Assembly: GCA_017509255.1 (NCBI GenBank)
Contig: JAFWQA010000014.1
Location: 33,663-97,662 of the forward strand
Direction: 5' to 3'
Source of the DNA: Clostridia bacterium
GTDB taxonomy: Bacteria; Bacillota; Clostridia; Christensenellales; Aristaeellaceae
Length of the DNA: 64,000 nt
Under the pieces are notes generated by a model. It did not search any database, was not told the DNA's origin, and saw only the letters and a list, made by a program, of their open reading frames with translations. How positions within the stretch are numbered: the stretch's first letter is position 1; every line of letters begins with the position of its first letter. Positions 14,837 to 36,597 of this stretch are shown piece by piece. The position numbers and the translations under genes are program-made.

Positions 14837-14855
14837 AAAAGAGAGGAGAAAAACC

Positions 14856-15857
14856 ATGAGCGTGATCGATCAGATCCGGCGGAAGGCGAAGGAAAGACTG
14901 ATGCGCGTGGTGCTGCCGGAGGGAGATGAGCCCCGTACGGTGGAGGCGGCGGCGGAGGTGGCCCGGGAGGGGCTGGCAAGGCCCATCCTGCTGGGAGACC
15001 CGCAAAAGGTCGCCGCGGCCGCGGCGGCAAGGGGCGCGGACATCACCGGCATCGAGGTGATCGACCCGGAGAACAGCGAGCAGGCCGCGCGATACACCGC
15101 GGCGCTGTATGAGCTGCGGAAGGCGAAGGGCCTGACGGAGGAGGCTGCCGGGCGGCTGGTCAGCGATCCGATGTATTACGGCATCATGATGGTCAAGCTC
15201 GGGGACGCGGACGGGCTGGTGTCCGGCGCGGTGCACACCACGGGCGATATGCTGCGCCCGGCGCTGCAGATCATCAAAACACGGCCGGGCATGAAGGTGG
15301 TGTCCTCCAGCTTCCTGATGGACTGCCCCAACAAGAGCCTGGGCGAGAACGGCCTGCTGGTCTACGCGGACTGCGTGGTCATGCCCTGCCCGACGGCGGA
15401 GGAGCTGGCGCACATCGCGGTGGCGGCCGCCGATACGGCCCGCACCCTCTGCGGGATCGAAGAGCCGAAGGTGGCGCTGCTTTCCTTCTCCACCAAGGGC
15501 AGCGCGAAGCATGAGCTGGTGGACAAGGTGCAGCAGGCCACGCAGATCGCGCATCAGCTGGCGCCGGAGCTGCTGCTGGACGGCGAGATGCAGATGGACG
15601 CCGCCCTGATCCCGGAGATCGGCGCGTCCAAGGCGCCGGGCAGCCCGGTGGCCGGGCATGCCAACGTCCTGATCTTTCCCGACCTGCAGGCCGGCAATAT
15701 CGGCTACAAGATCACCCAGCGCATCGGCGGGGCGGAATGCTTCGCCGTACTCCAGGGCCTGGCTAAGCCCTGCAACGACCTGTCCCGCGGCTGCAGCGCG
15801 GAGGACATCGTGAACACCGTTGCCATCACCGCCGTGCAGGCGCAGGCTGTGACCTGA
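14856..15857 (+). CDS. pta: Phosphate acetyltransferase
   Basis: Exchanges CoA for phosphate on acetyl groups, 333 aa, the short clostridial form. It starts with the family wording MRVVLPEGDEPRTVEAA and ends with the diagnostic block NVLIFPDLQAGNIGYK, QRIGGAECFAVLQGLAKP and NDLSRGCSAEDIVN. These are Pta rather than Ptb signatures, although the adjacent kinase is of the butyrate type. The ATG at 14856 follows GAGAGGAGAAAAACC; an upstream in-frame start overlaps buk and lacks a ribosome site. Likely co-transcribed with buk and closed by a TTCG-loop terminator. Confidence 0.92.
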   Translation: MSVIDQIRRKAKERLMRVVLPEGDEPRTVEAAAEVAREGLARPILLGDPQKVAAAAAARGADITGIEVIDPENSEQAARYTAALYELRKAKGLTEEAAGRLVSDPMYYGIMMVKLGDADGLVSGAVHTTGDMLRPALQIIKTRPGMKVVSSSFLMDCPNKSLGENGLLVYADCVVMPCPTAEELAHIAVAAADTARTLCGIEEPKVALLSFSTKGSAKHELVDKVQQATQIAHQLAPELLLDGEMQMDAALIPEIGASKAPGSPVAGHANVLIFPDLQAGNIGYKITQRIGGAECFAVLQGLAKPCNDLSRGCSAEDIVNTVAITAVQAQAVT

Positions 15858-15877
15858 ACAAAAGAAGCGTTGAAATC

Positions 15878-15901
15878 GGATCCCCTTCGGGGGATCCTTT
15901 T
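15878..15901 (+). terminator. Terminator of buk-pta
   Basis: GGATCCCC, TTCG tetraloop, GGGGATCC (15878-15897), then TTTTT interrupted by A. It lies 20 nt after the pta stop. Confidence 0.88.
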
Positions 15902-16182
15902 TATTTCTCAAAAAACACGTTCCAATAAGCAAATTTTGTCCCTCTGAAATTACATTTTGTCAGCAGGCTTCCGATCCGCCGTCCTCAGGAGCGGGGCATG
16001 ATGCGGAAAAAAGGAAAACAGTGTTCTAAAAGATGCTGCCCGCGGAAAAACGGAGAAAAAGGGTCAGGGTCCACATGAGGATCACGATAGGTTTTTTCTA
16101 CCGTTCACAGACTCGGAGCCGTCAGCGTCAAGCGGTTGAGGGAGAAAAGCAAAATTAACACAATTTTTTGCCAAAAAATATA

Positions 16183-16598: not shown

Positions 16599-17102
16599 AT
16601 GAACGCGTACTGTCTTTTTTGCAGGACGGAGTATGCCGGGGATATCACCGCGGCGATCCAGGCGTCCGGAGACTACCGGGCGATCTATCCGCAGATCATC
16701 CAGCGCAAGTGGGTCCGCGGTACGGCGACGGAGGTCCCGCATCCCTGCCTGCCCGGTTACGTATTTATTTACAGCGATGAGCCGATCGCGGATTTCAGCC
16801 CCCTGCGCCGGCATCTGGGCGTGATCCGCCCGCTGGGGCAGGAAAACGAGCACTACGAGCTGGCCGGGGATGACCTGAAGTTTGCCCGGGCCGTATACGG
16901 AATGGGCGGAACGGTCGGCATCCAGAAGGCCTACCGGGAGGGAGACGGCATCCGCCTGGCGGACGGCGTCTTTGCCGGCCTCACCGGCCGGATCCTCTGG
17001 TTCGACCGCAGAAAGCAGCGGGCGAAGGTGGAGGTCACCTTCGACGAGACGGTCTATACGCTCTGGGTCGGCATCGACATGATCGAGAAGCCGGATGAAT
17101 AA
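16599..17102 (+). CDS. NusG-paralogue antiterminator (LoaP/RfaH-like)
   Basis: Specialised NusG-family elongation factor of 167 aa, expected to bind RNA polymerase and allow reading through terminators in the long EPS operon. The N-terminal NGN domain begins MNAYCLFCRTEYAGDITAAI and includes the central VPHPCLPGYVFIYSDEP, as in NusG paralogues. The C-terminal KOW part is GVFAGLTGRILWFDRRKQRA with KVEVTF. The ATG follows a strong GGGAGGGG. First gene of the locus, overlapping the LCP gene by 8 nt. Housekeeping NusG is normally next to secE and rplK, which is not the case here. LoaP is the closest named group; the exact subfamily needs a profile search. Confidence 0.83.
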   Translation: MNAYCLFCRTEYAGDITAAIQASGDYRAIYPQIIQRKWVRGTATEVPHPCLPGYVFIYSDEPIADFSPLRRHLGVIRPLGQENEHYELAGDDLKFARAVYGMGGTVGIQKAYREGDGIRLADGVFAGLTGRILWFDRRKQRAKVEVTFDETVYTLWVGIDMIEKPDE

Positions 17103-18144
17103 AGAAAGCATGGAGGTGGGCACCGTGGAGCAAGAGCAGCTGCGGCGGCGGAAGCGTCCGGGTAAAACGGTGCTGCTTCTGACCGCTGTCGGTATCCTTG
17201 TCCTGCTGGCCGGAGGGTATCTGCTGGGCAGCTGGCTGGAGAACAGCGGCCGCGAGGCGGACAGCCTGGGGGACTACAACGACCGGTTCCGCTACAGCGC
17301 GATGCTGAAGCTGGACGGCCAAAGCTACCGGCAGAAGGGCAGCGTGACCACCCTGCTCCTGATGGGCATCGACCAGGTCTCCGATGAGGAACGCAAAACG
17401 CCCTACCGCAGCGGCGGGCAGGCGGACTTCCTCCGGCTGCTGGTCATTGACCGCACCGAGAAAACCGTGGTCCAGATCCCGATCGACCGCGATACGATCA
17501 CCCCGATCCGGATCCTGACGGTGCTCGGGGAAGAGGACGGCACAAGGGAAGAGCATATCTCCATTTCCCACAGCTTCGGCGACGGGAAGGAGCAGAGCGG
17601 CGAGCTGACGCGCAGAGCCGTTTCGGAGCTTTTCCTCGGCGCGAGGATCGACTTCTGGGTCGCCATGAGCATGGACGGCATTGCCGCCTTCAACGACACG
17701 CTGGGCGGCGTCGCGGTCACCCTGGAGGATGACCTGACGCAGTTTGACCCGGCGTGGCAGCCCGGCACGACCGTCATCCTGAGCGGCGAGCAGGCTTTCA
17801 ACTACCTCCACAGCCGTATGTCCGTCGGCGACGGGAGCAACGCGTCCCGCATGCGCCGCCAGCAGGCCTACATCTCCGAAGCCGCGAAGCTCCTGCAGAT
17901 CAAGGCCCAGGATGACGCGGACTTCGTGGGCCGGCTGTTTGACAGCCTGACGCCCTATCTGTCCAGCAATATCGGACGGGCCAACCTCGTCAATCTGGCC
18001 CTCCTTTCCAGGGACTTTGACCGCACCCTCCGGGAGATCCCCGGCGAGCACGGCAGGGACGCCGACGGCTTCACCGCCTTCTATTATGACAAAGACGCGG
18101 TCAGGCAGATGGCGCTGGAGCTGCTTTTCACTCCCATGGAGTAA
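17095..18144 (+). CDS. LytR-CpsA-Psr (LCP) family glycopolymer ligase
   Basis: Membrane-anchored phosphotransferase that attaches lipid-linked glycans to peptidoglycan; 349 aa. One N-terminal helix (KTVLLLTAVGILVLLAGGYLL) with a basic RRRKRP stretch before it, then an extracellular LCP domain. Visible motifs are LLMGID, RSGGQADFLRLLVID, VQIPIDRDT and NASRMRRQQAYI, containing the Asp and Arg residues that bind the polyprenyl phosphate. The chosen ATG overlaps the antiterminator stop. A GTG at 17125 has a better ribosome site (GGAGGTGGG) and could be the true start, giving 339 aa. It probably anchors the EPS product to the wall. Confidence 0.88.
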   Translation: MNKESMEVGTVEQEQLRRRKRPGKTVLLLTAVGILVLLAGGYLLGSWLENSGREADSLGDYNDRFRYSAMLKLDGQSYRQKGSVTTLLLMGIDQVSDEERKTPYRSGGQADFLRLLVIDRTEKTVVQIPIDRDTITPIRILTVLGEEDGTREEHISISHSFGDGKEQSGELTRRAVSELFLGARIDFWVAMSMDGIAAFNDTLGGVAVTLEDDLTQFDPAWQPGTTVILSGEQAFNYLHSRMSVGDGSNASRMRRQQAYISEAAKLLQIKAQDDADFVGRLFDSLTPYLSSNIGRANLVNLALLSRDFDRTLREIPGEHGRDADGFTAFYYDKDAVRQMALELLFTPME

Positions 18145-18782: not shown

Positions 18783-19589
18783 ATGGCGGATAATAAAAAC
18801 AGGCGCAGCCGGCAGGATGCCGGGCTGCTCCAGAGAAACCCGGAAAATCCCGGACAGTCAAAGGCTGCCCAGCAGGATACGATCGACCTGGTAGAGCTTT
18901 TCTACCGCCTGCTGGACAGCTGGAAGCTGCTCCTGATCGCAATGGCCGTCTGCATCCTCGCTCTGCTCGGCTTCAAGGCAGTCAAGCGCGACAAGCCGAT
19001 GTACCAGGCCAGCTCCACGATCTATGTGATCGGGACGGACACGACGCTGAGCCTGGCGGACCTGCAGATCTCCAGCAGCATGATGAACGACTATCTGAAG
19101 GTCTTCGACATCTGGGAGGTGCACGACATGGTGCGCCGAAACCTGGATCTCAAATACAATTACAAGCAGCTGCGGGAGAGCGTGACCGTGGTGAATCCCG
19201 CGAGCACGCGCATGCTGGATATCACCGTGTCCTCCGAGAGTCCGGAGGAGGCGGCGGACATGGCGAACGAATACGCCGTCGTCGTCAGCAATTACATTGC
19301 CGATACGATGAAGACGGACAAGCCCAGCATCATGTCCGTGGCGCTGGTGCCGACCAATCCCTATAACATCCACAACACCCGGGACCTGATCATGGCGGCC
19401 GTCGTCGGCCTGCTGATCGGCGCGGCGATCGTCACGGTCCAGATGATGACGGACGACAAGATCAAGACCGCGGAGGATATCATGCGCTATACCGGCCTGA
19501 GCAATCTGGCGATCATCCCGGTGGAGGAAACGCTGGCCGGCCACAGCATCAAGCCGCAGCATGCCGGAAAGGGGAGGCTGAAGTCATGA
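18783..19589 (+). CDS. Chain-length determinant / kinase activator (CpsC, Wzz family)
   Basis: Inner-membrane polysaccharide co-polymerase of 268 aa. It has the standard Wzz layout: a cytoplasmic N terminus, a first helix near residues 42-62 (LLLIAMAVCILALLGF), an extracellular loop with VINPAST-like text (VTVVNPASTRMLDITV), and a second helix near 205-225 (IMAAVVGLLIGAAIVTVQMM). In Firmicutes this protein activates the separate tyrosine kinase, encoded next with a 4-nt overlap. Together they set chain length and export. The start follows GGAGAGTAAT. Confidence 0.9.
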   Translation: MADNKNRRSRQDAGLLQRNPENPGQSKAAQQDTIDLVELFYRLLDSWKLLLIAMAVCILALLGFKAVKRDKPMYQASSTIYVIGTDTTLSLADLQISSSMMNDYLKVFDIWEVHDMVRRNLDLKYNYKQLRESVTVVNPASTRMLDITVSSESPEEAADMANEYAVVVSNYIADTMKTDKPSIMSVALVPTNPYNIHNTRDLIMAAVVGLLIGAAIVTVQMMTDDKIKTAEDIMRYTGLSNLAIIPVEETLAGHSIKPQHAGKGRLKS

Positions 19590-20362
19590 AGAAAGTCGAC
19601 CTGATGAGATTCGCTCCTCTCGGCTACGCCTGCGCGGAAGCCATCAATACCCTGTGCACCAACCTGACCTTCACGGGCAGCAACGTCAAGCGCATCATGG
19701 TGACCTCCTGCCATGCCTCGGAGGGCAAGAGCATGATCTCCATGAACATCTTGCGCACTATGGCAGGGCTGGGAAAGAGGGTAGCCCTGCTGGACATGGA
19801 CCTGCGCCGCAGCCGCCTCCGGGCTGACTACGGCATGGCCTTCAGCGACTCCAAGCCCCAGGGCATCACCCATTACCTGTCCGGCCAGGCCGCGCTGGAG
19901 GATATCATCTACAGCACGCCGATCGCCAACGCGTGCATCCTTCCGGTCACCAAAACGGTATCCAACTCCCTGTCCCTTCTCAACTCGGAGAAGACGGAGG
20001 AGCTGATCCGCAACCTGGGCGAGGCTTTTGACTACGTCATCATCGACGTATCCCCGGTTGGCGCCCTGATCGACGCGGCGCAGATCGCCCGCTACTGCGA
20101 CGGGACGCTGCTGGTCGTCAACTACAACGAGGTGCGCAAGAAGGAACTGATCGACGCCAGGAACCAGCTGGACCAGACCGGCTGCCCCATCCTCGGCACC
20201 GTGATCAACGAAGCGCGCTTCGACAGCTATCTGAACCGCAAGTATTACTACAAGTCCTATTATTACAGCCACTACGACAACTACTACGGCAAGGATGAAA
20301 AGGGCAGCGCCGATCCCGGTAAGCCCGCCGCTCCCCGCAAGGGAGCATCGGCCGGGAAATAA
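19586..20362 (+). CDS. CpsD-type bacterial tyrosine kinase
   Basis: Cytoplasmic BY-kinase, 258 aa, partner of the preceding CpsC. Walker A CHASEGKSMIS (near residue 47), Walker A' VALLDMDLRRSR and Walker B DYVIIDVSPVG are all present. The C terminus carries the autophosphorylated Tyr cluster RKYYYKSYYYSHYDNYYG, nine tyrosines in 18 residues. The start overlaps the stop of cpsC (ATGA). Cycling of Tyr phosphorylation controls polymer assembly in this family. No partner phosphatase (CpsB/YwqE) is visible in the window. Confidence 0.93.
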   Translation: MKKVDLMRFAPLGYACAEAINTLCTNLTFTGSNVKRIMVTSCHASEGKSMISMNILRTMAGLGKRVALLDMDLRRSRLRADYGMAFSDSKPQGITHYLSGQAALEDIIYSTPIANACILPVTKTVSNSLSLLNSEKTEELIRNLGEAFDYVIIDVSPVGALIDAAQIARYCDGTLLVVNYNEVRKKELIDARNQLDQTGCPILGTVINEARFDSYLNRKYYYKSYYYSHYDNYYGKDEKGSADPGKPAAPRKGASAGK

Positions 20363-20470: not shown

Positions 20471-21883
20471 GTGTCTAACGTCAGAACCAAGAATCCGATT
20501 TCGCTCAGGAATCTCAAGCTGCTGAATCTCGTCGTCATGTCGGCGATTTTCTGGCTGCTCTGGACGCGCTGCGGCGCGAGCCGGCTGTATGAGGGGGAAT
20601 TCATCAGCTTCCGGAACATCGCCTTCCTGGCGGCTTTCGTGCTCCTGTATTTCGCTTTTTCGCGGATATACAACGCATTCTCGGTCGTCTACTGCAGTGT
20701 CCGGGAACTGATCCTGAGCCAGTTTCTGACAGCCCTTTTCGCCAACTCGATCATCTTCCTGGTGACCGCCGTGATCTTCGGCACGCTGGATCACATCCTG
20801 CCGTTCTTTATCACGCTCTGCTGCCAGACGGCATTCGCCGTCATCTGGTGCTGCGGGACGCACGCTCTGTACTTCAAGTATACCAAATCCGGCGATACCT
20901 ATATCATCTACGATATGCAGGAAGGCATGGAAAACACCCTGAACGAGCACGGCCTGGACAAGCGCTATAAGGTCGTCGGCACCTGCACCGCGCAGGAATG
21001 CCTGGAAAAGAACATGTCCATGCTGACCGGGAATGTGCACACCGTCTTCTTCAGCGGGGTCCACAGCCATGACCGGAACATCATCCTGAAGTACTGCATC
21101 GAAAATCATATCTCCTGCTTCATTATTCCGCGGGTCGGCGATCTGCTGATGAGCAGCGCCCTGACCATGAACATCATGCATCTGCCGATGCTGTACGTCA
21201 GCCGCTATACGCCGAATCCGGAATACGTCATCATCAAGCGGGCCTTTGACATCTTCGCTTCCGCCGTCGGCCTCATCCTCGCTTCCCCGTTCATGGCGGT
21301 CATCGCCCTGGCCGTCCGCTCGGACGGCGGTCCGGCCATCTACCGGCAGACCCGCCTGACCAAGGACGGAAAGGAATTCCAGATCATGAAATTCCGTTCC
21401 ATGCGGACGGACGCGGAAAAGGACGGCGTAGCCAGGCTTTCCACCGGTGACAACGACGACCGCGTCACCAAGGTCGGCCGGATCATCCGCATGCTCCGCC
21501 TGGACGAGCTGCCCCAGCTGATCAACGTATTCCGGGGCGACATGAGCCTCGTCGGTCCACGCCCGGAACGCCCTGAGATCGCCGCGCAGTATGAAGCAGA
21601 AATGCCCGAGTTCCGGCTCCGCCTGCAGGCCAAGGCCGGCATCACCGGCTACGCCCAGGTCTACGGCCAGTACAACACAACCCCCTATCACAAGCTCCAG
21701 CTGGACCTGATGTACATCGCCCATCCCAGCCTTCTGCAGGACCTGAAGATCCTCTTCGCTACCGTCAAGATCATCTTCATGAAGGACAGTACAGAAGGTG
21801 TAGCCGAAGGGCAGACGACGGCGTTGGACTACCAAAATGCAGCAGATAGAACGGGAAAATACGCTGAAACGGTTTCTAAATAG
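20471..21883 (+). CDS. Polyprenyl glycosylphosphotransferase (priming enzyme)
   Basis: Membrane enzyme that starts EPS repeat-unit synthesis by placing a sugar 1-phosphate on undecaprenyl phosphate; 470 aa. The N-terminal half has four to five helices and a soluble CoA-binding-like region. The C-terminal bacterial-sugar-transferase domain begins KRAFDIFASAVGLILASP and contains YRQTRLTKDGKEFQIMKFRS, RLDELPQLINVFRGDMSLVG and PRPERPE, including the catalytic Asp-Glu pair. Start GTG at 20471 after GGAGGGGACC. It is the last host-GC gene before the AT-rich cassette and lies right behind the internal terminator. Sugar choice (galactose, GlcNAc or a diamino sugar) cannot be read. Confidence 0.9.
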   Translation: MSNVRTKNPISLRNLKLLNLVVMSAIFWLLWTRCGASRLYEGEFISFRNIAFLAAFVLLYFAFSRIYNAFSVVYCSVRELILSQFLTALFANSIIFLVTAVIFGTLDHILPFFITLCCQTAFAVIWCCGTHALYFKYTKSGDTYIIYDMQEGMENTLNEHGLDKRYKVVGTCTAQECLEKNMSMLTGNVHTVFFSGVHSHDRNIILKYCIENHISCFIIPRVGDLLMSSALTMNIMHLPMLYVSRYTPNPEYVIIKRAFDIFASAVGLILASPFMAVIALAVRSDGGPAIYRQTRLTKDGKEFQIMKFRSMRTDAEKDGVARLSTGDNDDRVTKVGRIIRMLRLDELPQLINVFRGDMSLVGPRPERPEIAAQYEAEMPEFRLRLQAKAGITGYAQVYGQYNTTPYHKLQLDLMYIAHPSLLQDLKILFATVKIIFMKDSTEGVAEGQTTALDYQNAADRTGKYAETVSK

Positions 21884-22376: not shown

Positions 22377-23495
22377 GTGAAGAAACTTAAAGTGATGATT
22401 TTAGCCAATGATACGACATATACATACAACCTCCGTAATGAGATTATCGAGCGCCTTGCATCAGATGGACATGAAGTTGTTGTCGCATCCCAGCCCCTAC
22501 TCCTTCAGGAAGAGTTGAAGAGTCTGGGATGTAGACTTGTAAATATAGAAACAAATCGTCATGGAACAAACCCACTTTCAGACCTCGGATTACTTATGAA
22601 GTTCAGGATGGTGTTGTCGGAAGAGAGACCAGATGTGGCTCTGACATATAACATCAAGCCGAATGCTTATGGCGGGATCGCTTGCCGGATGACAAAGACG
22701 CATTATATCCCCAATATCACCGGTCTAGGTACTGCAGTTGAGTATCCAGGTTTAATGCAGAAGATTTCTACGAAGCTATATAAGGCTGGTGTGGCTGGAG
22801 CGGACTGTATTATGTTCCAGAACGATGAAAACAAACAGTTCTTTATCGATCACCACATGATGCCTAAGAAGGCAAGAACTCGGCTTCTTCCCGGTTCTGG
22901 AGTGAGCCTCAAGGTCCATAAGGCGATGGAGTATCCAGTGGACACAGGCGTGATCAACTTCCTCTTCATTGCCCGTGTAATGGCTGAAAAGGGTATTGAT
23001 CTGCTCCTTGGAGCCGCGAAGAGGATATATGAGAAACACAAGAATGTCATGTTCCATATTTGTGGCCAGTGTGATGATGAGAAGTATATCGGTCTTCTAA
23101 AAGAAGCCGAGAAGAGCGGATATATCAATTATCACGGTGAGCAGAAAGATATGGTCCCGTTCTTCGAGATGGCACACTGCATTGTGCATCCTAGTTACTA
23201 CCCGGAAGGCATGAGCAATGTGCTGTTGGAAGCAGCAGCGCATTGCAGACCCATCATAGCCACAGATCGTGCTGGGTGCCGCGAAACGGTTGATGAAGGT
23301 AAGAGCGGATACATCATCCCCATAAAAAATCAGGATGCATTATATGATGCATTGGAAAGATTCCTGGCAATGACTTGGGAACAACGACGCAATATGGGAT
23401 TGGCTGGAAGAGCAAAGGTTGAACATGAATTTGATCGACAATTAGTTGTAAATGCATATATGGAAGAAATAGCGAGGTGTATAAAGCATGATTAA
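22377..23495 (+). CDS. GT4-family glycosyltransferase
   Basis: Retaining GT-B glycosyltransferase, 372 aa, cytoplasmic face. The N-terminal acceptor half begins VMILANDTTYTYNLRNEIIE and contains YNIKPNAYGGIACR, typical of the branch working just after priming (CapM/WbpT-like). The donor half has the E-x7-E motif in PEGMSNVLLEAAAH and IIATDRAGCRETVDEG. The start is GTG with AGGGAGCTGTAGCT before it. First gene of the AT-rich cassette, so probably the second sugar transferase. It overlaps the next gene by 8 nt. Sugar specificity is unknown. Confidence 0.9.
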   Translation: MKKLKVMILANDTTYTYNLRNEIIERLASDGHEVVVASQPLLLQEELKSLGCRLVNIETNRHGTNPLSDLGLLMKFRMVLSEERPDVALTYNIKPNAYGGIACRMTKTHYIPNITGLGTAVEYPGLMQKISTKLYKAGVAGADCIMFQNDENKQFFIDHHMMPKKARTRLLPGSGVSLKVHKAMEYPVDTGVINFLFIARVMAEKGIDLLLGAAKRIYEKHKNVMFHICGQCDDEKYIGLLKEAEKSGYINYHGEQKDMVPFFEMAHCIVHPSYYPEGMSNVLLEAAAHCRPIIATDRAGCRETVDEGKSGYIIPIKNQDALYDALERFLAMTWEQRRNMGLAGRAKVEHEFDRQLVVNAYMEEIARCIKHD

Positions 23496-24219
23496 ATATT
23501 CGATGCAACAAATCAGAGAATCCTTACCAAAGGAAAAAAATAAGGGCGATTCTTTATGGGTTCAGTATGTGGCAAGAAATATTTCTTACCCATTCACTTT
23601 CCTCTTTATAAATATTGGACTATCAGCATGGCAAGTGTCAGTCTTATCTATTTTGGTGGCATTTATGGCGTGCTTTGCTTTCTGCATTAATAATGATGTT
23701 GTCAGATGGGTAGGTGTTATTCTGATTCATTTCTGGATGATTTGCGATTGTGTTGACGGTAATATTGCAAGGGTCAAGAAGACAACTGGACCAATGGGTG
23801 AATTCATCGATGCGCAAAGCGGATATATAATAAGTGCTTTCTGCTACTTTGGATTAGGGGTTGCTGCTTTCTATACAACAAGGTTTTCACAGTACTCGAC
23901 ATTGCTACTTACGTTAGGGAGTATAGCGTCTATCGCAAATATTCTCTCGAGACTAATTCATCAAAAGTATACAGTTGCACAGATAAATTCTAATGGCGGT
24001 AAGAATGAGGTGCAAATAGAAGAAAAAGACAGTTCTAGTTTTCAAAGCCTTAGACGACGGATAGGTAAGGAAATAGGACTGTCAGGGATGTTCATGATAC
24101 TGGTGGTTTTGTGCCAAATATTCAAAATATATGATTATGTCACAGTGTTTTATTTTCTTTTCTGTATGGTGAGCTTACTAGTTGTAATCGCTAGATATAG
24201 TATAAAAGCAAAAGTATAG
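23488..24219 (+). CDS. CDP-alcohol phosphotransferase family membrane protein
   Basis: Six-helix membrane enzyme (243 aa) of the family that transfers a phospho-alcohol from a CDP-linked donor. The signature starts well as DCVDGNIAR, then GPMGEFIDAQSG. The consensus D-x2-DG-x2-AR-x(7-8)-G-x3-D-x3-D is met except for the last Asp, which is Gly here. That residue is often considered the catalytic base, so activity or acceptor may differ. It sits directly before the phosphonate activation gene, so the natural donor guess is a CMP-phosphonate and the acceptor a lipid or lipid-linked sugar. Overlaps the preceding GT gene, so co-translation is likely. Confidence 0.8.
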   Translation: MIKYSMQQIRESLPKEKNKGDSLWVQYVARNISYPFTFLFINIGLSAWQVSVLSILVAFMACFAFCINNDVVRWVGVILIHFWMICDCVDGNIARVKKTTGPMGEFIDAQSGYIISAFCYFGLGVAAFYTTRFSQYSTLLLTLGSIASIANILSRLIHQKYTVAQINSNGGKNEVQIEEKDSSSFQSLRRRIGKEIGLSGMFMILVVLCQIFKIYDYVTVFYFLFCMVSLLVVIARYSIKAKV

Positions 24220-24255
24220 TTGATTTAACCTGGCTTGGTAAGAAAGGAATAACAA

Positions 24256-26265
24256 ATGAAAGCACTAATTCTTAATTCTGGCCTCGGCTCCCGGATGGGA
24301 GTCCTCACCTCAGAGCACCCTAAATGCATGACGGAGATCAGCTCGAATGAAACGATCTTTTCTCGTCAGCTGAAGCAGATTGCCGAGGCAGGGATTGAGG
24401 AAGTTGTAATCACTACTGGATACTATGACGGCGTTCTGGTAAATTACTGCAATTCGCTCGACTTGCCGCTGCATTATACCTTTGTGAAGAATCCTATCTA
24501 CGACAAAACCAACTACATTTATTCCATCTACTGTGCAAGAGAATACTTGGAAGATGACATTATTCTCATGCATGGGGACTTGGTCTTCGAGAATGAGGTC
24601 TTTGATCGTGTAATTGCTTCTTCTGTTTCCTGCATGACCGTTTCCTCCACGCTGTCGCTTCCTGAGAAGGATTTCAAAGCGGTTGTTCACGACGGCATGG
24701 TCATGAAAGTCGGTGTCGAGTTCTTCAACGACGCGATGGAAGCACAGGCTCTCTATAAACTGAACAAAGAAGACTGGATGGTATGGCTGAATAAGATCAT
24801 CGAGTTCTGTGAGACTGAAAAGACGAAGGTCTACGCTGAGAATGCTCTGAACGAGCTGAACGGTACGGCCAATATTCATGCTCTAGATGTTGAAAATCTT
24901 CTCTGCTCAGAGATCGACAACCCTGAGGATCTGGCTGTTGTAATATCGAAGTTGAAGGAGATCCAGTCTCGTACAGTTTACATGTGCTTCGCTTCCGATA
25001 TTATTCATGGCGGTCATATTGCCATCATCAAAAAGGCACAGAAGCTTGGAAAGCTGATCATTGGCGTGTTGTCTGATGAAGCTGTTGCCTCCTATAAGCG
25101 TATGCCCTTGGTCCCGGCATCTGAGCGGAAGGTTATGTTTGAGAACATTGCCGGTGTGTATAAAGTTGTTGACCAGAACACATTGAGCTACAAGGAAAAC
25201 CTGGAGAAGTATAAACCTTCCATCGTTGTTCACGGTGACGACTGGGTGTCCGGATTCCAGCGTCTAATCCGCGATGAAGTGACGGCGATTCTTGCCTCTT
25301 ACGGCGGAAAACTCGTAGAGTATCCATATTCAACTGATCCGAAGTATGCTGAAATTGATGCCAGGACTCGCTCTGATCTTGCCATGCCTGATATCCGTCG
25401 TGGACGCCTTAAAAGAATGCTGGATGCAAAGGGCCTTGTGACGGTCATGGAAGCACATGATGGCCTCACTGGTTTGATCGTTGAGAATACTGTAGTTCAC
25501 CAGGATGGCGGCGCTCACCAGTTTGATGCTATGTGGATCAGCTCTTTGTGTGATTCCACTGCCAAGGGCAAGCCGGACATCGAGCTTGTGGATATGACCA
25601 GCCGTTTTCGTACGATAGAGGACATTACTGAAGTCACGACAAAGCCTATCATCTTTGACGGTGATACCGGAGGAAAGACTGAGCACTTTGTATATACCGT
25701 CCGGAGCTTGGAGCGGTTGGGAGTCAGCATGGTCATCATCGAGGACAAGACTGGTCTCAAGAAGAACAGTCTGTTCGGAACCGAAGTTGTCCAGACTCAG
25801 GATAACATTGAGAACTTCAGCGCGAAGATTCGTGCTGGTAAGAAGGCGCAGCGTACCAAGGAGTTCATGATCTGCGCGAGAATCGAGAGCCTCATCCTCG
25901 AACAGGGTATGGAAGATGCGCTGACACGTGCTTTTGCTTTTGTGGAAGCCGGTGCCGATGCTATCATGATCCACAGCCGGAAGAAAGACCCCTCCGAGAT
26001 TCAGGAGTTCATTGAGAAGTTCCGGGTGAAGGATAAGGCCACACCCATTGTTCTCGTTCCCACGTCTTTCAATTCTGTAACTGAGGAGGAGTGGAAAGAA
26101 CGCGGTGCTAACATCATTATCTACGCAAATCAGCTCATGAGAGCGGAAGTTCCCGCAATGCAGAAGGCAGCTGAGATGATTCTGGAAAACCACAGAGCTG
26201 AAGAGTGCGATGCGATGCTGATGCCGTTCAAAGACATCATCCGTTTGATCCCGGCAGAGGGCTAA
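24256..26265 (+). CDS. Three-domain fusion: nucleotidyltransferase, cytidylyltransferase and PEP mutase
   Basis: 669 aa, cytoplasmic. Domain 1 (about 1-235) is a LicC/RfbA-type nucleotidyltransferase: LNSGLGSRMG, HPKCMTEI, DKTNYIYSI, LMHGDLVF. Domain 2 (about 240-385) is a TagD/GCT-like cytidylyltransferase with the HxGH motif as HGGH at 251-254. Domain 3 (about 388-669) is a phosphoenolpyruvate mutase with IIFDGDTGGKTEHF and the diagnostic EDKTGLKKNS at 496-505, which separates mutases from isocitrate lyases. The mutase makes phosphonopyruvate from PEP; one or both nucleotidyl domains presumably activate the finished phosphonate with CTP. Ppm joined to one nucleotidyl domain is known; both together is unusual. 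The stop is 3 nt before the dehydrogenase gene. Confidence 0.92.
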   Translation: MKALILNSGLGSRMGVLTSEHPKCMTEISSNETIFSRQLKQIAEAGIEEVVITTGYYDGVLVNYCNSLDLPLHYTFVKNPIYDKTNYIYSIYCAREYLEDDIILMHGDLVFENEVFDRVIASSVSCMTVSSTLSLPEKDFKAVVHDGMVMKVGVEFFNDAMEAQALYKLNKEDWMVWLNKIIEFCETEKTKVYAENALNELNGTANIHALDVENLLCSEIDNPEDLAVVISKLKEIQSRTVYMCFASDIIHGGHIAIIKKAQKLGKLIIGVLSDEAVASYKRMPLVPASERKVMFENIAGVYKVVDQNTLSYKENLEKYKPSIVVHGDDWVSGFQRLIRDEVTAILASYGGKLVEYPYSTDPKYAEIDARTRSDLAMPDIRRGRLKRMLDAKGLVTVMEAHDGLTGLIVENTVVHQDGGAHQFDAMWISSLCDSTAKGKPDIELVDMTSRFRTIEDITEVTTKPIIFDGDTGGKTEHFVYTVRSLERLGVSMVIIEDKTGLKKNSLFGTEVVQTQDNIENFSAKIRAGKKAQRTKEFMICARIESLILEQGMEDALTRAFAFVEAGADAIMIHSRKKDPSEIQEFIEKFRVKDKATPIVLVPTSFNSVTEEEWKERGANIIIYANQLMRAEVPAMQKAAEMILENHRAEECDAMLMPFKDIIRLIPAEG

Positions 26266-26268
26266 AAA

Positions 26269-27399
26269 ATGGAACAGAGGATAATAACAGCAAGTGATAA
26301 TTACATAGGGTTTGATCAGTGGATTCAAGAGAATGGATGCAAGAAAATCCTGATGGTTTGTGATGGCTCCATTTGGCACATGGACGGATTTAATAAGCAT
26401 CTGGAAGAAGTTGAGAAAACGGAGGTCGAGATGATCGGTTTCCGTGACTTCCAGTCGAATCCGTTATATGAATCAGTCGTAAAAGGTGTTGAGCTTTTCA
26501 GAGAGGAAAAATGCGATAGTATCATGGCCGTCGGCGGCGGCTCTGCGATGGATGTTGCGAAATGCATAAAGTTGTATTCGGGTTGCTCTGGAGATGGCGC
26601 AGAAGGCTCTTGGCTGAACGCAGAAATCGTCCCGAACAGTATCCCGTTCATAGCGATGCCCACAACGGCAGGAACTGGAAGCGAGGCTACCCGCTATGCA
26701 GTCATTTACCATAATGATGCTAAGCAGAGCATCACTAGCGAGAGCATTATACCTGGTATTGTTTTGATGGACCCTAATGCACTTAAAACGCTCCCGTTAT
26801 ATCAGAAGAAAGCAACTATGATGGACGCCTTGTGCCATGCCATCGAGTCTTTCTGGTCGGTGAACAGTACAGATCAAAGCAAGGAGTATAGCAGAGCGGC
26901 AATTCAAGCTGTGTTGAAGCATATGAATGGTTATCTTGCAAACACCGAGGATGGTAACGCTGGAATGCTCAAAGCTGCACACACTGCCGGGCAGGCCATT
27001 AACATCACCCAAACAACAGCTGGCCATGCCATGTGCTATAAGATCACAAGCCTTTTTAGATCAGCCCATGGGCATGCTGCTATCCTTTGTGACCGTGTGC
27101 TCTTCCCCTGGATGGTTGAGAACACTGATAAGTGTATTGATCCAAGGGGTGAGGAGTATCTAAGGGCTACGCTTGATGAGATCGGACATGCTATGGGTTG
27201 TGAGGATGCGAAGGCAGGAGCTGACAAGCTGAAAAGTATCTTTGATGAACTCGGTCTCGAAGTCCCGACCGCCTCAGCAGAGCAATTTGAGATCTTGAAA
27301 AACTCTGTCAACCCGGTCAGATTGAAGAATCATCCTATAGCCTTGGACGTCGATACGATAGACTCTCTCTACCATACTATTCTGAACGGAGAATCATAA
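26269..27399 (+). CDS. Iron-type alcohol dehydrogenase, likely phosphonoacetaldehyde reductase
   Basis: Group III metal-dependent dehydrogenase of 376 aa. The nucleotide site is MAVGGGSAMDVAKCI, followed by PTTAGTGSEATRYAV; metal ligands lie in DALCHAIESFW and the His-rich SAHGHAAILCD. Between PEP mutase and phosphonopyruvate decarboxylase genes, the natural reaction is phosphonoacetaldehyde to 2-hydroxyethylphosphonate, as done by PhpC/FomC-type members of this family. No aminotransferase is present, so 2-aminoethylphosphonate is not the expected product. It begins 4 nt after the fusion gene and overlaps the next gene by 1 nt. Function is assigned mainly from context. Confidence 0.85.
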   Translation: MEQRIITASDNYIGFDQWIQENGCKKILMVCDGSIWHMDGFNKHLEEVEKTEVEMIGFRDFQSNPLYESVVKGVELFREEKCDSIMAVGGGSAMDVAKCIKLYSGCSGDGAEGSWLNAEIVPNSIPFIAMPTTAGTGSEATRYAVIYHNDAKQSITSESIIPGIVLMDPNALKTLPLYQKKATMMDALCHAIESFWSVNSTDQSKEYSRAAIQAVLKHMNGYLANTEDGNAGMLKAAHTAGQAINITQTTAGHAMCYKITSLFRSAHGHAAILCDRVLFPWMVENTDKCIDPRGEEYLRATLDEIGHAMGCEDAKAGADKLKSIFDELGLEVPTASAEQFEILKNSVNPVRLKNHPIALDVDTIDSLYHTILNGES

Positions 27400-28532
27400 T
27401 GAAGGTTGAAAAGTTAGTAGAGATCATTGGCTCTGATTTTTATACCGGAGTGCCTGACAGCCAGCTGAAAGCTCTTTGCAACTATCTGATGGCTACCTAC
27501 GGTATTGATCCTCATCATCATGTGATTGCTGCAAACGAAGGCAACTGCACAGCCTTGGCGGCCGGATATCACCTGGCAACTGGCAAGATTCCCGTGGTTT
27601 ACATGCAGAACAGCGGCGAGGGTAATATCATCAACCCAGTGGCAAGCCTGCTCAACGATAAGGTTTATGCAATCCCCATCATTTTCGTCGTCGGTTGGCG
27701 TGGCGAACCCGGAATCCATGATGAACCTCAGCATATTTACCAAGGCGAAGTAACCGTAAAACTGCTAGAGGATATGGATATTAAGCCTTTTGTCATTGGC
27801 AAAGATACGACTGATGATGAAGTGATGACAGTGATGAAAGAGTTCAGAAATGTTCTCGCTACTGGTAAAGATGTCGCGTTTGTAATCCGCAAGGGCGCTC
27901 TGACCGATGCTCCAAAGGTGGAATATAAGAACGACAATCACATGATCCGTGAAGAGATTATCAAACATATTGTCAAGGCCAGTGGCGAAGATCCGATTGT
28001 CAGCACTACGGGGAAAGCTAGCCGTGAGTTGTTTGAGACTCGTGCGGCCAACGGTCAGAGCCACAAGTACGATTTCCTGACCGTCGGGTCCATGGGCCAT
28101 AGCAGTTCTATCGCTTTAGGCATCGCTATCAACAAGCCGGAACAGCGCATTTGGTGCGTGGACGGTGACGGTGCCGTTCTTATGCATATGGGTTCTATGG
28201 CGGTATTGGGAAGCAATAAGCCAAAGAATTTAGTCCACGTTGTTATCAACAATGGCGCACATGAGACCGTTGGTGGTATGCCTACGGTTGCAGCGGATAT
28301 TGACCTCGTTGGTGTAGCAAAAGCGTGCGGATATCCATATGCAGTATCTGTTGACTGCTTTGAGAAGCTGGATAAGGAACTTGAAGCAGCAAAAGAGCGC
28401 GGAGAACTGAGCTTGATCGAAGTGAAGTGCTCTATCGGCGCGCGTGAGGATCTTGGGAGGCCAACCACAACTGCTCTTGAAAACAAACAATATTTTATGG
28501 AGTATTTGAAGACCCTATCACGAGAAAAGTAA
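27399..28532 (+). CDS. Phosphonopyruvate decarboxylase
   Basis: ThDP enzyme of 377 aa that decarboxylates phosphonopyruvate to phosphonoacetaldehyde, pulling the unfavourable PEP mutase equilibrium forward. Visible are the early FYTGVPDSQLKALCNYL and ANEGNCTALAAGYHLATG (with the conserved Glu), VVGWRGEPGIHDEPQH, and the ThDP/Mg site WCVDGDGAVLMHMGSMA followed by VINNGAHETVGG. These are hallmark texts of Ppd rather than of sulfopyruvate or acetolactate enzymes. Normal length. The ATG overlaps the stop of the dehydrogenase (TAATG). It ends the phosphonate block; 189 nt of AT-rich non-coding sequence follow. Confidence 0.93.
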   Translation: MKVEKLVEIIGSDFYTGVPDSQLKALCNYLMATYGIDPHHHVIAANEGNCTALAAGYHLATGKIPVVYMQNSGEGNIINPVASLLNDKVYAIPIIFVVGWRGEPGIHDEPQHIYQGEVTVKLLEDMDIKPFVIGKDTTDDEVMTVMKEFRNVLATGKDVAFVIRKGALTDAPKVEYKNDNHMIREEIIKHIVKASGEDPIVSTTGKASRELFETRAANGQSHKYDFLTVGSMGHSSSIALGIAINKPEQRIWCVDGDGAVLMHMGSMAVLGSNKPKNLVHVVINNGAHETVGGMPTVAADIDLVGVAKACGYPYAVSVDCFEKLDKELEAAKERGELSLIEVKCSIGAREDLGRPTTTALENKQYFMEYLKTLSREK

Positions 28533-33312: not shown

Positions 33313-34617
33313 ATGTTAGAAAAGAAGGAAATTCAATATTTCCCCATTTTTATATTTGGATTGTGTAGTTTACTCGTGGCCAGAGATGTTATTGGTATAA
33401 GCTATAACAAATTCATTCTTGTTGGGTTTATACTTCTTTTTGCCATTGTATCCAACTATAAAGATTTATCTTCAATGCTGTGTTTTATGTTCCCGTTAAC
33501 GTGGGGGCTTCCTTATACATATATTTTTCTTGGATGTATAATAATATGCTGGTTTAAGAGAAAAAAAATACCGGGTCCGTCATTCATTTTGATTATCATC
33601 TTCTTTTTGCTAGAAATAGTTGCATCGTTCTTTTACCAAACAACCGATTACATAAGCATAATAAAATATGTTTCGGTAATAGCTATATTCTTCACATTTC
33701 TTTATGATTCGGAAATTGATAAAATTAGTTGTATAAAAGCATATTATTATGGTTCGATAGTTTTGTGCCTAATTATTCTGGTTACGACATTTAGAAACGC
33801 CCCATCAAACTGGCTCTATTTATTCTCAAAAGGTTGGTTCAGATTTGGTAGCAAACAAGCAGAAGACGCAGAAGGTATGATGCTTTCTGTTAATTCAAAT
33901 ACTCTTGCATATTATAGTATTGTTGGAATAGCAATCGCTTATTATTTTATCCCAGGAACAAAAGGCAAACAAAGATGGCTCCATATTTTTGCTTTAGGCT
34001 TATTTCTAATATCTGGCGTATTTACAGTTTCAATATCATGGATGATTGTTTTTGCTGTGTGCACACTTTTGTTTGTCTTTTCGCAAACAAAAAATGTTAA
34101 AGCAGTATTGTTTTCTGCCTTAGGAATGATAGTATTGCTTCTTGTTTTTAGAATAGCGATTTCAAATAGGCCTGAGCTTTTATCGGCATTTACAGATCGT
34201 TTGGCAAATGCTGATTTACGTACTGGAAATAATAGAACTGAACTTATGCTTGGATATCATCGTGTGTTTATCAATAATCCACGTTTTATATTTTTAGGGA
34301 CTGGCGTTACTCAGTATAGACAAGTAACGAATTTGATTAATTCATTTCACAATATGATTCAACAGATATTTGTTAGTTATGGAGTTTTTGGTGGATTAAT
34401 ATTCTTCATAGGACTTTTGGCACCATTGAGAAAGATAAAGAAGCACACCACTACACTCTTGGATTGGATCCCTTTGATAGTTGTTTTATTGTTTACGCAA
34501 ACGATCCAGTTTATTAATCCAGAATCTTTAATGCTGCCCTTCGTTATTGCTTTTTATCTATTGTCTGCTAATTCTGCAAAGGAAGAAGAAAATGAAACGC
34601 TTTATTATAACGGTTGA
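33313..34617 (+). CDS. wzy: EPS repeat-unit polymerase (Wzy-like)
   Basis: Integral membrane protein of 434 aa with about 11-12 helices, low sequence conservation as usual for Wzy. Support comes from topology, a large extracytoplasmic loop with ADLRTGNNRTELMLGYHRVF, the following GTGVTQYRQVTNLI, and the late SFHNMIQQIFVSYGVFGG, a pattern shared by O-antigen ligase/polymerase proteins. It polymerises flipped repeat units outside the membrane, working with Wzx (37806) and CpsC. The next gene starts inside its 3' end (26-nt overlap). Confidence 0.83.
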   Translation: MLEKKEIQYFPIFIFGLCSLLVARDVIGISYNKFILVGFILLFAIVSNYKDLSSMLCFMFPLTWGLPYTYIFLGCIIICWFKRKKIPGPSFILIIIFFLLEIVASFFYQTTDYISIIKYVSVIAIFFTFLYDSEIDKISCIKAYYYGSIVLCLIILVTTFRNAPSNWLYLFSKGWFRFGSKQAEDAEGMMLSVNSNTLAYYSIVGIAIAYYFIPGTKGKQRWLHIFALGLFLISGVFTVSISWMIVFAVCTLLFVFSQTKNVKAVLFSALGMIVLLLVFRIAISNRPELLSAFTDRLANADLRTGNNRTELMLGYHRVFINNPRFIFLGTGVTQYRQVTNLINSFHNMIQQIFVSYGVFGGLIFFIGLLAPLRKIKKHTTTLLDWIPLIVVLLFTQTIQFINPESLMLPFVIAFYLLSANSAKEEENETLYYNG

Positions 34618-35509: not shown

Positions 35510-35522
35510 TGTGGTGATAAGT

Positions 35523-36584
35523 ATGGATAGAATTGGCTTGTTGACATTTCATCGGACAACAAATTTTGGGTCATATTTGCAAACATATGGGCTGTTTAGG
35601 GAAATACGCAACCTGGGATTTGATTGCGAGATTATTGACTATAGATGTCCTTCAATTGAAGAACGAGAAAATCTACAGAAAATGGTTGGACATAATGTAA
35701 AGTCCATTCTAAAAGCTTTATTGCTTCAACCTGCGTATAACAAAAAAGCAGCAGCACTTGAAGATTTTTCTACTCATAATATGACATTTAGCAAACCATT
35801 TGTACCAGACAACATAGAAGATGCAAACGATCTTTATGATCGGTTTATTGTCGGAAGTGATATTGTTTGGGGACTTGATATTACAGACTGTGACTACAAC
35901 TTTTTTTTGAAATTTGCTGCTGATGAAAAAAAGAAGTTTGCTTTTTCTTCATCTGTTGGCACGGAGACAATGGAACATAAAGATGAAGTAAAACCGCTAC
36001 TAAGGCGTTTCGATAGAATTGCTGTTCGGGAATATAGCGCTGTGGAATGGGTAAAAAAAGTATCCAATTGTAATGCTGACTGGGTTTGCGATCCGACAAT
36101 GCTTCTTACAGTTAATGAATGGAGGAGCGCCATTCCTTTTGAACAAATTGAAAAAGACTATGTCCTTATTTACTTCAATAACCCTGGTAAAAAGGCCCTT
36201 CGAGATGCTATTGAGTTTGCAAATAAGTATCATAAAAAAGTGCTATACGTAAATCATGGATTGCCGGAAAAAGGGGTAGTAAATATAAAGCCAAAATCTT
36301 TAAATGAATTCTTGAGCTTAATTTGTTATGCTGATCACATATTCACAGCATCTTACCATGGGATGCTATTTTCTCTATATTTTAATAAAGAAATGACATT
36401 TTATACTCGAGATCATGCAAGCCGAATGATATCGCTTGCTGAACGCTTAGGTATTCAGGGACAATGTGGAGATTCAAGCACTATTGAGAATTTTCAATGC
36501 ATGTCATACAAGGCGATTAACGAGAGAATCGATGAATTTCGAAATGCATCAATTAACATTTTGAAAGAAATGTTGGTTTCGTAA
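35523..36584 (+). CDS. Polysaccharide pyruvyl transferase family protein
   Basis: 353 aa, GT-B-like fold. The N terminus IGLLTFHRTTNFGSYLQTYG is the family hallmark (usually HxxNYGSxLQ), followed by FIVGSDIVWGLDI, and the C-terminal ITASYHGML-like motif appears as FTASYHGMLFSLYF. These enzymes move pyruvate from PEP to a sugar, giving an acidic ketal. The family also includes members with unknown reactions that pair with an FrhB-like Fe-S protein, exactly as here. ATG 35523 has GGTGAT before it; upstream GTG codons at 35511 and 35514 are possible starts. Confidence 0.86.
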   Translation: MDRIGLLTFHRTTNFGSYLQTYGLFREIRNLGFDCEIIDYRCPSIEERENLQKMVGHNVKSILKALLLQPAYNKKAAALEDFSTHNMTFSKPFVPDNIEDANDLYDRFIVGSDIVWGLDITDCDYNFFLKFAADEKKKFAFSSSVGTETMEHKDEVKPLLRRFDRIAVREYSAVEWVKKVSNCNADWVCDPTMLLTVNEWRSAIPFEQIEKDYVLIYFNNPGKKALRDAIEFANKYHKKVLYVNHGLPEKGVVNIKPKSLNEFLSLICYADHIFTASYHGMLFSLYFNKEMTFYTRDHASRMISLAERLGIQGQCGDSSTIENFQCMSYKAINERIDEFRNASINILKEMLVS

Positions 36585-36597
36585 TGGAGCGCGGTTT

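Follow-up and report, generated by a model that had tools for sequence, protein, structure and literature searches.

Closest Described Systems

The closest described systems are the Pnt pathways with PntC (Rice et al. 2019, PMC6697681). In the accessible part of that article, PEP mutase (Ppm) is found fused to PF12804 and/or PF01467 domains, and the likeness extends to phosphonopyruvate decarboxylase (Ppd), CMP activation and a surface-glycan context. Triple fusions are also counted there (42, 2.8% of 1485 Ppm); hence, the cassette described here varies a pathway that is already known. The PntC enzymes characterised in this article, the main one on surface-phosphonate activation, act on aminoethylphosphonate (AEP) and are accompanied by a transaminase, whereas the cassette possesses a dehydrogenase instead.

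Fom1, from the early fosfomycin pathway (PDB 5x3d), likewise carries an HxGH cytidylyltransferase N-terminal to PEP mutase, and its fused domain makes the CMP adduct of 2-hydroxyethylphosphonate (CMP-HEP) according to the same part of PMC6697681. Unlike Fom1, the fusion studied here has an extra N-terminal PntC/LicC-like domain and is encoded in an EPS operon, not in an antibiotic cluster. LicC (1jyk) and the inositol-1-phosphate cytidylyltransferase/DIPP synthase structures (2xme, 4mnd) belong to the same family as this extra domain. In 4mnd, such a domain and a CDP-alcohol phosphotransferase form one chain; here, they are the products of neighbouring genes.

The same core is present on plasmid NZ_CP085933.1 of Segatella copri DSM 18205: a triple fusion (73% identical), Ppd (54%) and an iron-type dehydrogenase (45%), followed by genes for a CDP-glycerol-glycerophosphotransferase-family protein, an O-antigen polymerase and a flippase. 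Its order, Ppm-Ppd-dehydrogenase, is unlike that of the present cassette, and its HxGH motif reads NSAH instead of HGGH. No HEP-type PntC and no phosphonate in Prevotella/Segatella copri was encountered in titles and abstracts, among which subscription journals are thinly covered. The putative HEP branch in this cultured gut species would allow HEP glycans to be tested for in a strain that has a name.

Organization of the Cassette and the Surrounding Operon

The analysed stretch of DNA, called the window, is 64,000 nucleotides long. Four tightly packed genes had been proposed between 23488 and 28532, and they were indeed recovered as ORFs on the + strand with gaps of at most 36 nt. The first gene (23488-24219) encodes a CDP-alcohol-phosphotransferase-like membrane protein of 243 aa and overlaps the upstream glycosyltransferase gene by 8 nt. 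After 36 nt follows the triple fusion (24256-26265, 669 aa), composed of a MobA/LicC/PntC-like nucleotidyltransferase, a Fom1-type HxGH cytidylyltransferase and a PEP mutase. An iron-type alcohol dehydrogenase, the proposed phosphonoacetaldehyde reductase (26269-27399, 376 aa), begins after a gap of 3 nt and overlaps by 1 nt the phosphonopyruvate decarboxylase gene (aepY, 27399-28532, 377 aa).

The same genome contains a second fusion copy on another contig (C27), 76% identical, with a dehydrogenase 60% identical and a decarboxylase 79% identical, the latter on the strand opposite to the fusion. Fusion relatives are encoded in 382 stretches of public genomes, of which the best 80 were taken further. 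Because of this second copy and these relatives, the cassette is not a chance arrangement. A misassembled or chance fusion was rejected as well, since the chain was found in 110 collected proteins; 105 of these differ from one another within the last 600 aa, and clustering at 97% leaves 103. Close relatives of the source bacterium come from rumen and gut.

The surrounding genes had been read as an EPS operon with wzx, wzy, a priming enzyme and LCP. On the + strand, a LytR-CpsA-Psr (LCP) protein (17095-18144; PF03816, 60.6 bits), a priming sugar-phosphate transferase (20471-21883; PF02397, 213 bits) and a Wzx-type flippase (37806-39236; PF01943, 68.2 bits) were identified, which confirms the EPS setting, while the Wzy assignment is weak: the Wzy_C/O-antigen ligase match at 33313-34617 (+ strand, PF04932) reaches 26.3 bits, under the cut-off of 31.7. 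Profile matches also revealed a Wzz-type chain-length protein (18783-19589, + strand) and its AAA/ParA-type partner (19586-20362, + strand), and the operon includes glycosyltransferase genes and a pyruvyltransferase gene.

Predicted Pathway and Core Enzymes

From its gene content, the cassette is predicted to make HEP and to activate it with CTP. The PEP mutase in the C-terminal part of the fusion would yield phosphonopyruvate, which Ppd would convert to phosphonoacetaldehyde; the iron-type dehydrogenase would form HEP from it, and the cytidylyltransferase part of the fusion would join HEP to CMP. A CMP-phosphonate-using transferase could then attach HEP to one of the sugars in the EPS repeating unit, or to the lipid that carries this unit. 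Here, this transferase would probably be the CDP-alcohol-phosphotransferase-like protein, and in sister loci LicD or TagF-like proteins. A phosphonyl-tailoring (Pnt) cassette of the HEP kind, with HEP placed on an EPS sugar or lipid carrier, is quite probably what the window encodes. The first two steps are assigned through curated equivalog models whose cut-offs are passed; we infer the reductase step, the formation of CMP-HEP and, most of all, the transfer step. The sequence-only reading had proposed a HEP decoration activated with CTP. Synthesis and CTP activation gained good support from the Fom1-type cytidylyltransferase, the lack of an AEP transaminase over cut-off in the genome, the dichotomy between sampled loci and the pocket residues, which mostly agree with that dichotomy; attachment, wall linkage and the role of the CDP-alcohol-phosphotransferase-like protein did not.

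The PEP mutase domain (25381-26262, + strand) matches PEP_mutase (Pfam, 187.8 bits), TIGR02320 (399.4 bits, cut-off 319.55) and PDB 1m1b (E 6.6e-42). It contains the EDKTGLKKNS motif noted earlier, as the middle domain does the HxGH motif (HGGH), and D497, K498, N504 and S505 are conserved in 110/110 fusions. A plain isocitrate-lyase relative was rejected, as TIGR02320 is over its cut-off and the methylisocitrate lyase models are far below theirs. The expected ThDP-type decarboxylase was confirmed by TPP enzyme domains (Pfam) and by TIGR03297 (460.8 bits, cut-off 312.5).

The dehydrogenase matches Fe-ADH (PF00465, 128.4 bits) and PF25137, and exceeds the NCBIfam cut-off of none of the 17 models among the matches listed (TIGR03405: 127.9 vs. 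423.7). D186, H253 and H267 are present in all 88 aligned proteins, and H190 in 79, with Gln in the other nine; D/H/H/H is the metal ligand set of iron-type dehydrogenases. The Segatella copri homologue is recorded as phosphonoacetaldehyde reductase.

Proposed Transfer of the Phosphonate

Among the locus genes scanned, the CDP-alcohol-phosphotransferase-like protein is the sole candidate for a CMP-HEP user. It matches CDP-OH_P_transf (PF01066) with 33.7 bits (cut-off 22), and its best PDB match is the CDP-alcohol phosphotransferase AF2299 (4o6m, E 0.0025). The full motif of these enzymes is D(x)2DG(x)2AR(x)8G(x)3D(x)3D. The motif had been reported for this protein, and DxxDGxxAR...GxxxD is present, with the last Asp replaced by Gly. 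Since the motif is incomplete, the protein is named CDP-alcohol-phosphotransferase-'like' and is not filed as a member. The last position is also Gly in L011 (L numbers denote collected loci), His in L144 and Thr in L138-L141; in AF2299, it is Asp. The family context of this protein is thin, as relatives occur in 6/150 family genomes and, except for its own, at 25-30% identity.

Directly upstream of the fusions, LicD (18), Glyphos_transf (9) and CDP-OH_P_transf (2) were identified among the 92 genes scanned out of 111, the other 19 coming from duplicate own-type loci, lying antisense or encoding fewer than 120 aa. The core of three genes resembles a module, found repeatedly in surface-glycan loci with varying transferases.

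HEP could also be made and activated here for a membrane lipid, with the CDP-alcohol-phosphotransferase-like protein forming a phosphonolipid. Its likeness to AF2299 and its best NCBIfam match, archaetidylinositol phosphate synthase (49.8 bits, far below the cut-off of 180), point in that direction. However, its gene overlaps a glycosyltransferase gene in the EPS operon, and LicD or TagF-like genes often lie directly upstream of the fusion in sister loci, so a lipid destination seems unlikely. For the preferred glycan destination, HEP may be attached to the EPS polymer, which could be linked to the wall through the LCP protein.

Nucleotidyltransferase Domains of the Fusion

As proposed earlier, two nucleotidyl domains are fused to the PEP mutase: NTP_transf_3, CTP_transf_like and PEP_mutase were identified in one chain (Pfam). 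The N-terminal PF12804 domain (24256-24951, + strand, aa 1-232; NTP_transf_3, 40.4 bits) shows weak PDB similarity to LicC (1jyk), 2xme and 4mnd (E 7.5e-8 to 7.9e-6). The PntC consensus GXG(T/S)RX4-8PK, as given in the accessible part of PMC6697681, is present as GLGSR...PK, and the catalytic residues R13, K23 and D108 are conserved in 110/110 fusions. Equally invariant (110/110) is His106, which stands in the window fusion at the place of the amine-contacting Glu104 of Tde-PntC; the aligned PDB segment stops before Glu196, the second amine contact. Because of this His, the fusion is not filed as an AEP-type PntC. The same position is Glu in 9/9 aligned separate PntC-type proteins from transaminase loci and, read by eye, in a tenth (L150); it is Asp in LicC, Met in 2xme, and Tyr in the NTP domain that is fused to the mutase in L152, an AEP locus.

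The middle domain (24949-25380, + strand, aa 232-375; CTP_transf_like at aa 248-342, 54.7 bits) matches the HEP-cytidylyltransferase of Fom1 (5x3d) with an E of 1.5e-36. Its K281, D329 and Q335 correspond to the Lys/Asp/Gln of Fom1 and may bind HEP. Transaminase-linked middle domains have Asn/Asn/Glu-or-Met at these places (8/8); the dehydrogenase-linked split protein L143, with R/N/Q, is an exception. The pocket differences map to one branch of the middle-domain tree and hence reflect one evolutionary event, not replicates; as independent evidence, the pocket residues were rejected. This tree has 40 rows, with 15 fusions picked by hand from the 109 then aligned and every fusion labelled HEP regardless of its own neighbours. 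In the alignments, the label 'H' also took in 10 proteins that are split or re-fused; eight of them are dehydrogenase-linked and two (L118 and L122) have no dehydrogenase in view.

Tentatively, His106/Glu together with KDQ/NN(E or M) may serve as a sequence rule distinguishing HEP from AEP loci. The rule is weakened by the Tyr of L152 and by two proteins, L123 (genome G032) and L127 (G132), which fall within the AEP-type clade in genomes lacking a transaminase over cut-off. L127, from a genome of the same genus, is an NTP-CTP-dehydrogenase fusion.

Dehydrogenase and Transaminase Linkage

No AEP transaminase over cut-off was found in the whole genome, which is 74% complete (best TIGR03301 26.8 vs. 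360.8), in agreement with the earlier statement that no aminotransferase is present; at this completeness, the gene could be missing from the assembly. In the bacterial family, the full-length fusion occurs in 31/150 genomes, which makes the putative HEP branch frequent; 29 of these 31 contain Ppd, and a single one (G033) an AEP transaminase over cut-off.

One of the 80 loci (L037) was dropped, its fusion being split over two ORFs. Among the remaining 79, 65 extend at least 2.6 kb downstream, with a dehydrogenase homologue in 59, Ppd in 60 and both in 56; in six of the 65, no dehydrogenase was found by direct BLAST. Locus genes were counted in this way because a greedy choice of ORFs had masked some dehydrogenases with antisense reading frames. 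A PhnW/AEPT homologue is present in 5/79 loci, beside the dehydrogenase in L052, L058, L067 and L069, and in L017, where no dehydrogenase was found; those of L017, L058 and L069 are over NCBIfam cut-offs. The fusion as an exceptionless predictor of HEP was rejected on account of these five loci. His106 is unchanged in all five and therefore does not track the transaminase there.

In the phylum sample, a PEP mutase over cut-off was detected in 16/398 genomes. The 15 other loci are linked to a dehydrogenase (five) or a transaminase (nine), or have neither in view (one); in none of the 15 were both seen together.

The product might instead be AEP, its transaminase being encoded in the quarter that the assembly lacks and another role falling to the dehydrogenase. 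The 74% completeness, the homologues in five sister loci and the accessible part of PMC6697681, where AEP exemplifies surface phosphonates, would fit. Against this stand the rarity of the transaminase in fusion-bearing family genomes (1/31), pocket residues without the AEP-type signature, and a dehydrogenase within the operon, a homologue of which forms one chain with the same pair of nucleotidyltransferase domains in L127; an AEP product is thus quite unlikely. That HEP is a mere intermediate towards another phosphonate or a free antibiotic-like molecule is very improbable: the accessible parts of the sources place HEP in the fosfomycin route (PMC6697681) and in methylphosphonate synthesis (PMC8931226) and interpret a gut-methanogen PPM-Ppd-reductase cluster as possible antibiotic synthesis (PMC10035134), but the operon genes scanned match no recognised HEP-processing family, and glycan-transfer genes recur as neighbours of the fusion.

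Two Nucleotidyltransferase Domains per Locus

Two nucleotidyltransferase domains were identified in 14/15 of the other phylum PEP-mutase loci, the fifteenth (L145) lying at a contig edge. In the two-domain loci, one is fused to the mutase and the other is separate or also fused, the pairs being NTP+CTP or NTP+NTP. A specific question about the phosphonate pathway arises from this pattern. Phosphonate tailoring might need two nucleotidylations, with the triple fusion as their single-chain form; the N-terminal domain would be a HEP-specific cytidylyltransferase, with His for the amine-binding Glu, and the mutase-fused domain would perform the second activation or be dispensable. This explanation is possible but rather doubtful. 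In L163 and L076, from records named Bacteroidota, the first His of HxGH is lost and the N-terminal catalytic residues are intact. Two loci of the family sample, L123 and L124, show a third pairing, CTP+CTP.

Cassette Genes and Genomic Context

The sequence-only reading had proposed four tightly packed genes (23488-28532, forward strand), and its open reading frames, their packing and their families were borne out by ORF calls and Pfam matches. The 669-aa fusion carries NTP_transf_3 (aa 3-122), CTP_transf_like (aa 248-342) and PEP_mutase (aa 387-643) in a single chain (Pfam). Curated equivalog cut-offs are passed by the PEP mutase and the phosphonopyruvate decarboxylase (Ppd); the iron-type dehydrogenase passed none in the same NCBIfam scan, and a Segatella record itself annotates its homologue as phosphonoacetaldehyde reductase.

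The cassette is filed as a variant of the Pnt pathway. PMC6697681 reports triple fusions in 42 of 1485 Ppm, as well as the chemistry of Fom1 (the fosfomycin-pathway cytidylyltransferase-PEP mutase). The triple fusion is shared with that pathway, whereas its characterised PntC cytidylyltransferase is of the 2-aminoethylphosphonate (AEP) type. Elsewhere, in the excerpts considered, esters of 2-hydroxyethylphosphonate (HEP) on polysaccharide are reported from marine dissolved matter (PMC9381506), and a PPM-Ppd-reductase cluster of one gut methanogen is interpreted as possible antibiotic synthesis (PMC10035134). The AEP/HEP residue differences, exchangeable transferases and two-nucleotidyltransferase pattern described below were not found in the literature searched, which does not prove them unpublished.

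The three core genes (fusion, dehydrogenase, Ppd) have a G+C content of 0.47-0.48, the CDP-alcohol-phosphotransferase-like gene upstream 0.365, two flanking glycosyltransferases 0.36-0.45 and the entire window 0.538. This pattern fits a core module placed within a glycan locus that is AT-rich. A second copy of the fusion and dehydrogenase lies on contig C27 of the genome (2.5 Mb in 62 contigs, 74% complete), with a decarboxylase copy on the opposite strand; also in that stretch are genes for a Wzy/ligase, for two glycosyltransferases and for metabolism and transport. A third Ppd-like gene (L003:641-1771, C27:75683-76753; TIGR03297, 412 bits; 42% to the Ppd of the window) neighbours an aldo-keto reductase, a C-C bond lyase, fumarase halves and a MatE gene, not glycan genes.

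Reduction or Amination of Phosphonoacetaldehyde

Amination of phosphonoacetaldehyde yields AEP, and its reduction yields HEP. No TIGR03301 transaminase exceeds the cut-off in this 74% complete genome (best 26.8 bits vs. 360.8). A full-length fusion is listed in 31 of 150 family genomes, with an in-frame stop in three of them. Ppd is above cut-off in all of the 31 but G002 and G026 (29 genomes), and a transaminase in one, G033. The other two transaminase genomes of the family sample, G090 and G128, encode a two-domain CTP-PEP-mutase protein instead of the fusion.

On public contigs (best 80 of 382 relatives), a full-length fusion ORF is present in 79, with at least 2.6 kb downstream in 65. By BLAST, these 65 include 59 with a dehydrogenase homologue, 60 with Ppd, 56 with both and four with a transaminase homologue. 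Among all 79 fusion loci of these best 80, a transaminase homologue occurs in five, accompanied by a dehydrogenase in L052, L058, L067 and L069; in L017 no dehydrogenase was found. The transaminase homologues of L017, L058 and L069, the three scanned against NCBIfam, all pass its cut-offs.

In five loci of the same genus (L131, L133, L134, L161, L162), the 16-18 kb surrounding the triple fusion showed no close dehydrogenase or Ppd gene. A single dehydrogenase match, at 27%, occurs in L162, and G026, the source of L161, has no Ppd match genome-wide.

A phylum sample of 398 genomes, drawn independently of similarity to the fusion, contained 16 with a PEP mutase above cut-off, including the present one. 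Neighbours in the other 15 loci were identified by BLAST with reference proteins: five have the dehydrogenase (L143, L144, L151, L154, L156), nine the transaminase (L146-L150, L152, L153, L155, L157), and none showed both. L145, at a contig edge, has neither in view.

Residues of the Nucleotidyl Domains

The crystal structure of Tde-PntC places Glu104 in contact with the amine of AEP (PMC6697681). The N-terminal domain of all 110 fusions has His106 here, as do 10/10 split or re-fused homologues, eight of them dehydrogenase-linked. In transaminase loci, glutamate occupies the position in 9/9 of the separate PntC-type proteins aligned, and in a tenth (L150), read by eye. The rule is not clean, however: in transaminase locus L152 the NTP domain fused to the mutase carries Tyr, and His106 is retained in all five fusion loci with a transaminase homologue. 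The aligned PDB segment stops before Glu196, the second amine contact.

The middle (HxGH) domain is nearest to the cytidylyltransferase domain of Fom1 (5x3d, E 1.5e-36; runner-up 6.3e-12). Three positions shared by Fom1 and the fusions, Lys, Asp and Gln, become Asn, Asn, and Glu or Met in 8/8 aligned transaminase-linked homologues; across the 110 fusions they are K in 108 (R in 2), D in 108 (N in 2) and Q in 110. L143 departs from this pattern, with R/N/Q despite its dehydrogenase linkage. A tree of the middle domain (40 rows, including 15 of 109 fusions) places the eight transaminase-linked proteins in one clade (100/100), so the residue difference counts as one evolutionary event. This clade also takes in proteins of L123 and L127, from genomes (G032, G132) without a transaminase above cut-off. 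Fom1 lies on the opposite side, grouped with the protein of dehydrogenase-linked L144 and with two CTP domains that stand free in L123 and L124 (99/98). The residue difference draws its weight from Fom1, of known activity, lying on the dehydrogenase side.

Paired Nucleotidyltransferases

Two nucleotidyltransferases occur in 14 of the 15 phylum-sample loci, counting L143, in which one copy, at a contig edge, is partial. Transaminase-linked L146-L150 and L157 have a PntC-like gene beside a CTP-PEP-mutase; in L152, L153 and L155 it stands beside a PEP-mutase-NTP fusion (confirmed by Pfam for L152 only). Split versions also exist, in which the N-terminal domain has its own gene next to that of a CTP-PEP-mutase protein. 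L127, of the same genus, has both nucleotidyl domains fused to the iron-type dehydrogenase (13774-16020); Ppd, a CTP-PEP-mutase protein in its own right and three LicD-like genes are also present in this locus. In the family sample, L123 and L124 each have a pair of CTP domains, and L126, at a contig end, shows the mutase-fused nucleotidyltransferase alone. In three oral anaerobes, Rice et al. described nucleotidyltransferases of both kinds, fused and encoded nearby; in the excerpts considered, the assayed enzymes are PntC proteins (PMC6697681).

R13, K23, D108, E195, E219 and D221 of the N-terminal domain are invariant in 110 fusions, whereas HxGH is intact in 103, with Gly replaced by Ala in seven. 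Two of the seven have also lost the first His (NSAH in L163:11305-13314, a Segatella copri plasmid; LGAH in L076:3222-5231, a Prevotella MAG), with the N-terminal domain intact. These patterns suggest that the N-terminal domain is the more constrained of the two, and probably the likelier CMP-HEP synthase wherever the middle domain is degenerate. Two variants are a PntC-like nucleotidyltransferase with an N-terminal MarR-type winged helix, adjoining an AEP transaminase homologue (L150:10180-11076), and a free-standing NTP-CTP double nucleotidyltransferase (L130:7095-8186; 363 aa), around which 15 kb showed no PEP mutase.

Candidate Transferases

Of 111 genes seen directly upstream of the fusion, 92 were scanned, giving LicD (18), Glyphos_transf (9), sulfatase (4) and CDP-OH_P_transf (2). 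A BLAST search covered 60 of the 79 loci (from the best 80 of 382), those flanked on each side by 2.5 kb or more. Run with one or two queries for each family, and thus an undercount, it found LicD-like genes in at least 25, TagF-like in at least 13, the CDP-alcohol type of the window in at least one, and any of these in at least 35. Since the LicD, TagF-like and CDP-alcohol-phosphotransferase families all use CDP-alcohols, the core is most simply read as a module whose transferases are exchangeable.

The scanned genes of the window included no LicD or TagF-like gene, and the CDP-alcohol-phosphotransferase-like protein is therefore the remaining candidate. Its role as transferase of the phosphonate is only plausible, because the last motif aspartate, presumably the catalytic base, is replaced: by Gly in the window and L011, by His in dehydrogenase-linked L144 and by Thr in four distant homologues (Asp in AF2299). 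Further along the EPS operon, a polysaccharide pyruvyltransferase is followed by an FrhB/FdhB-type iron-sulfur protein (35511-37794).
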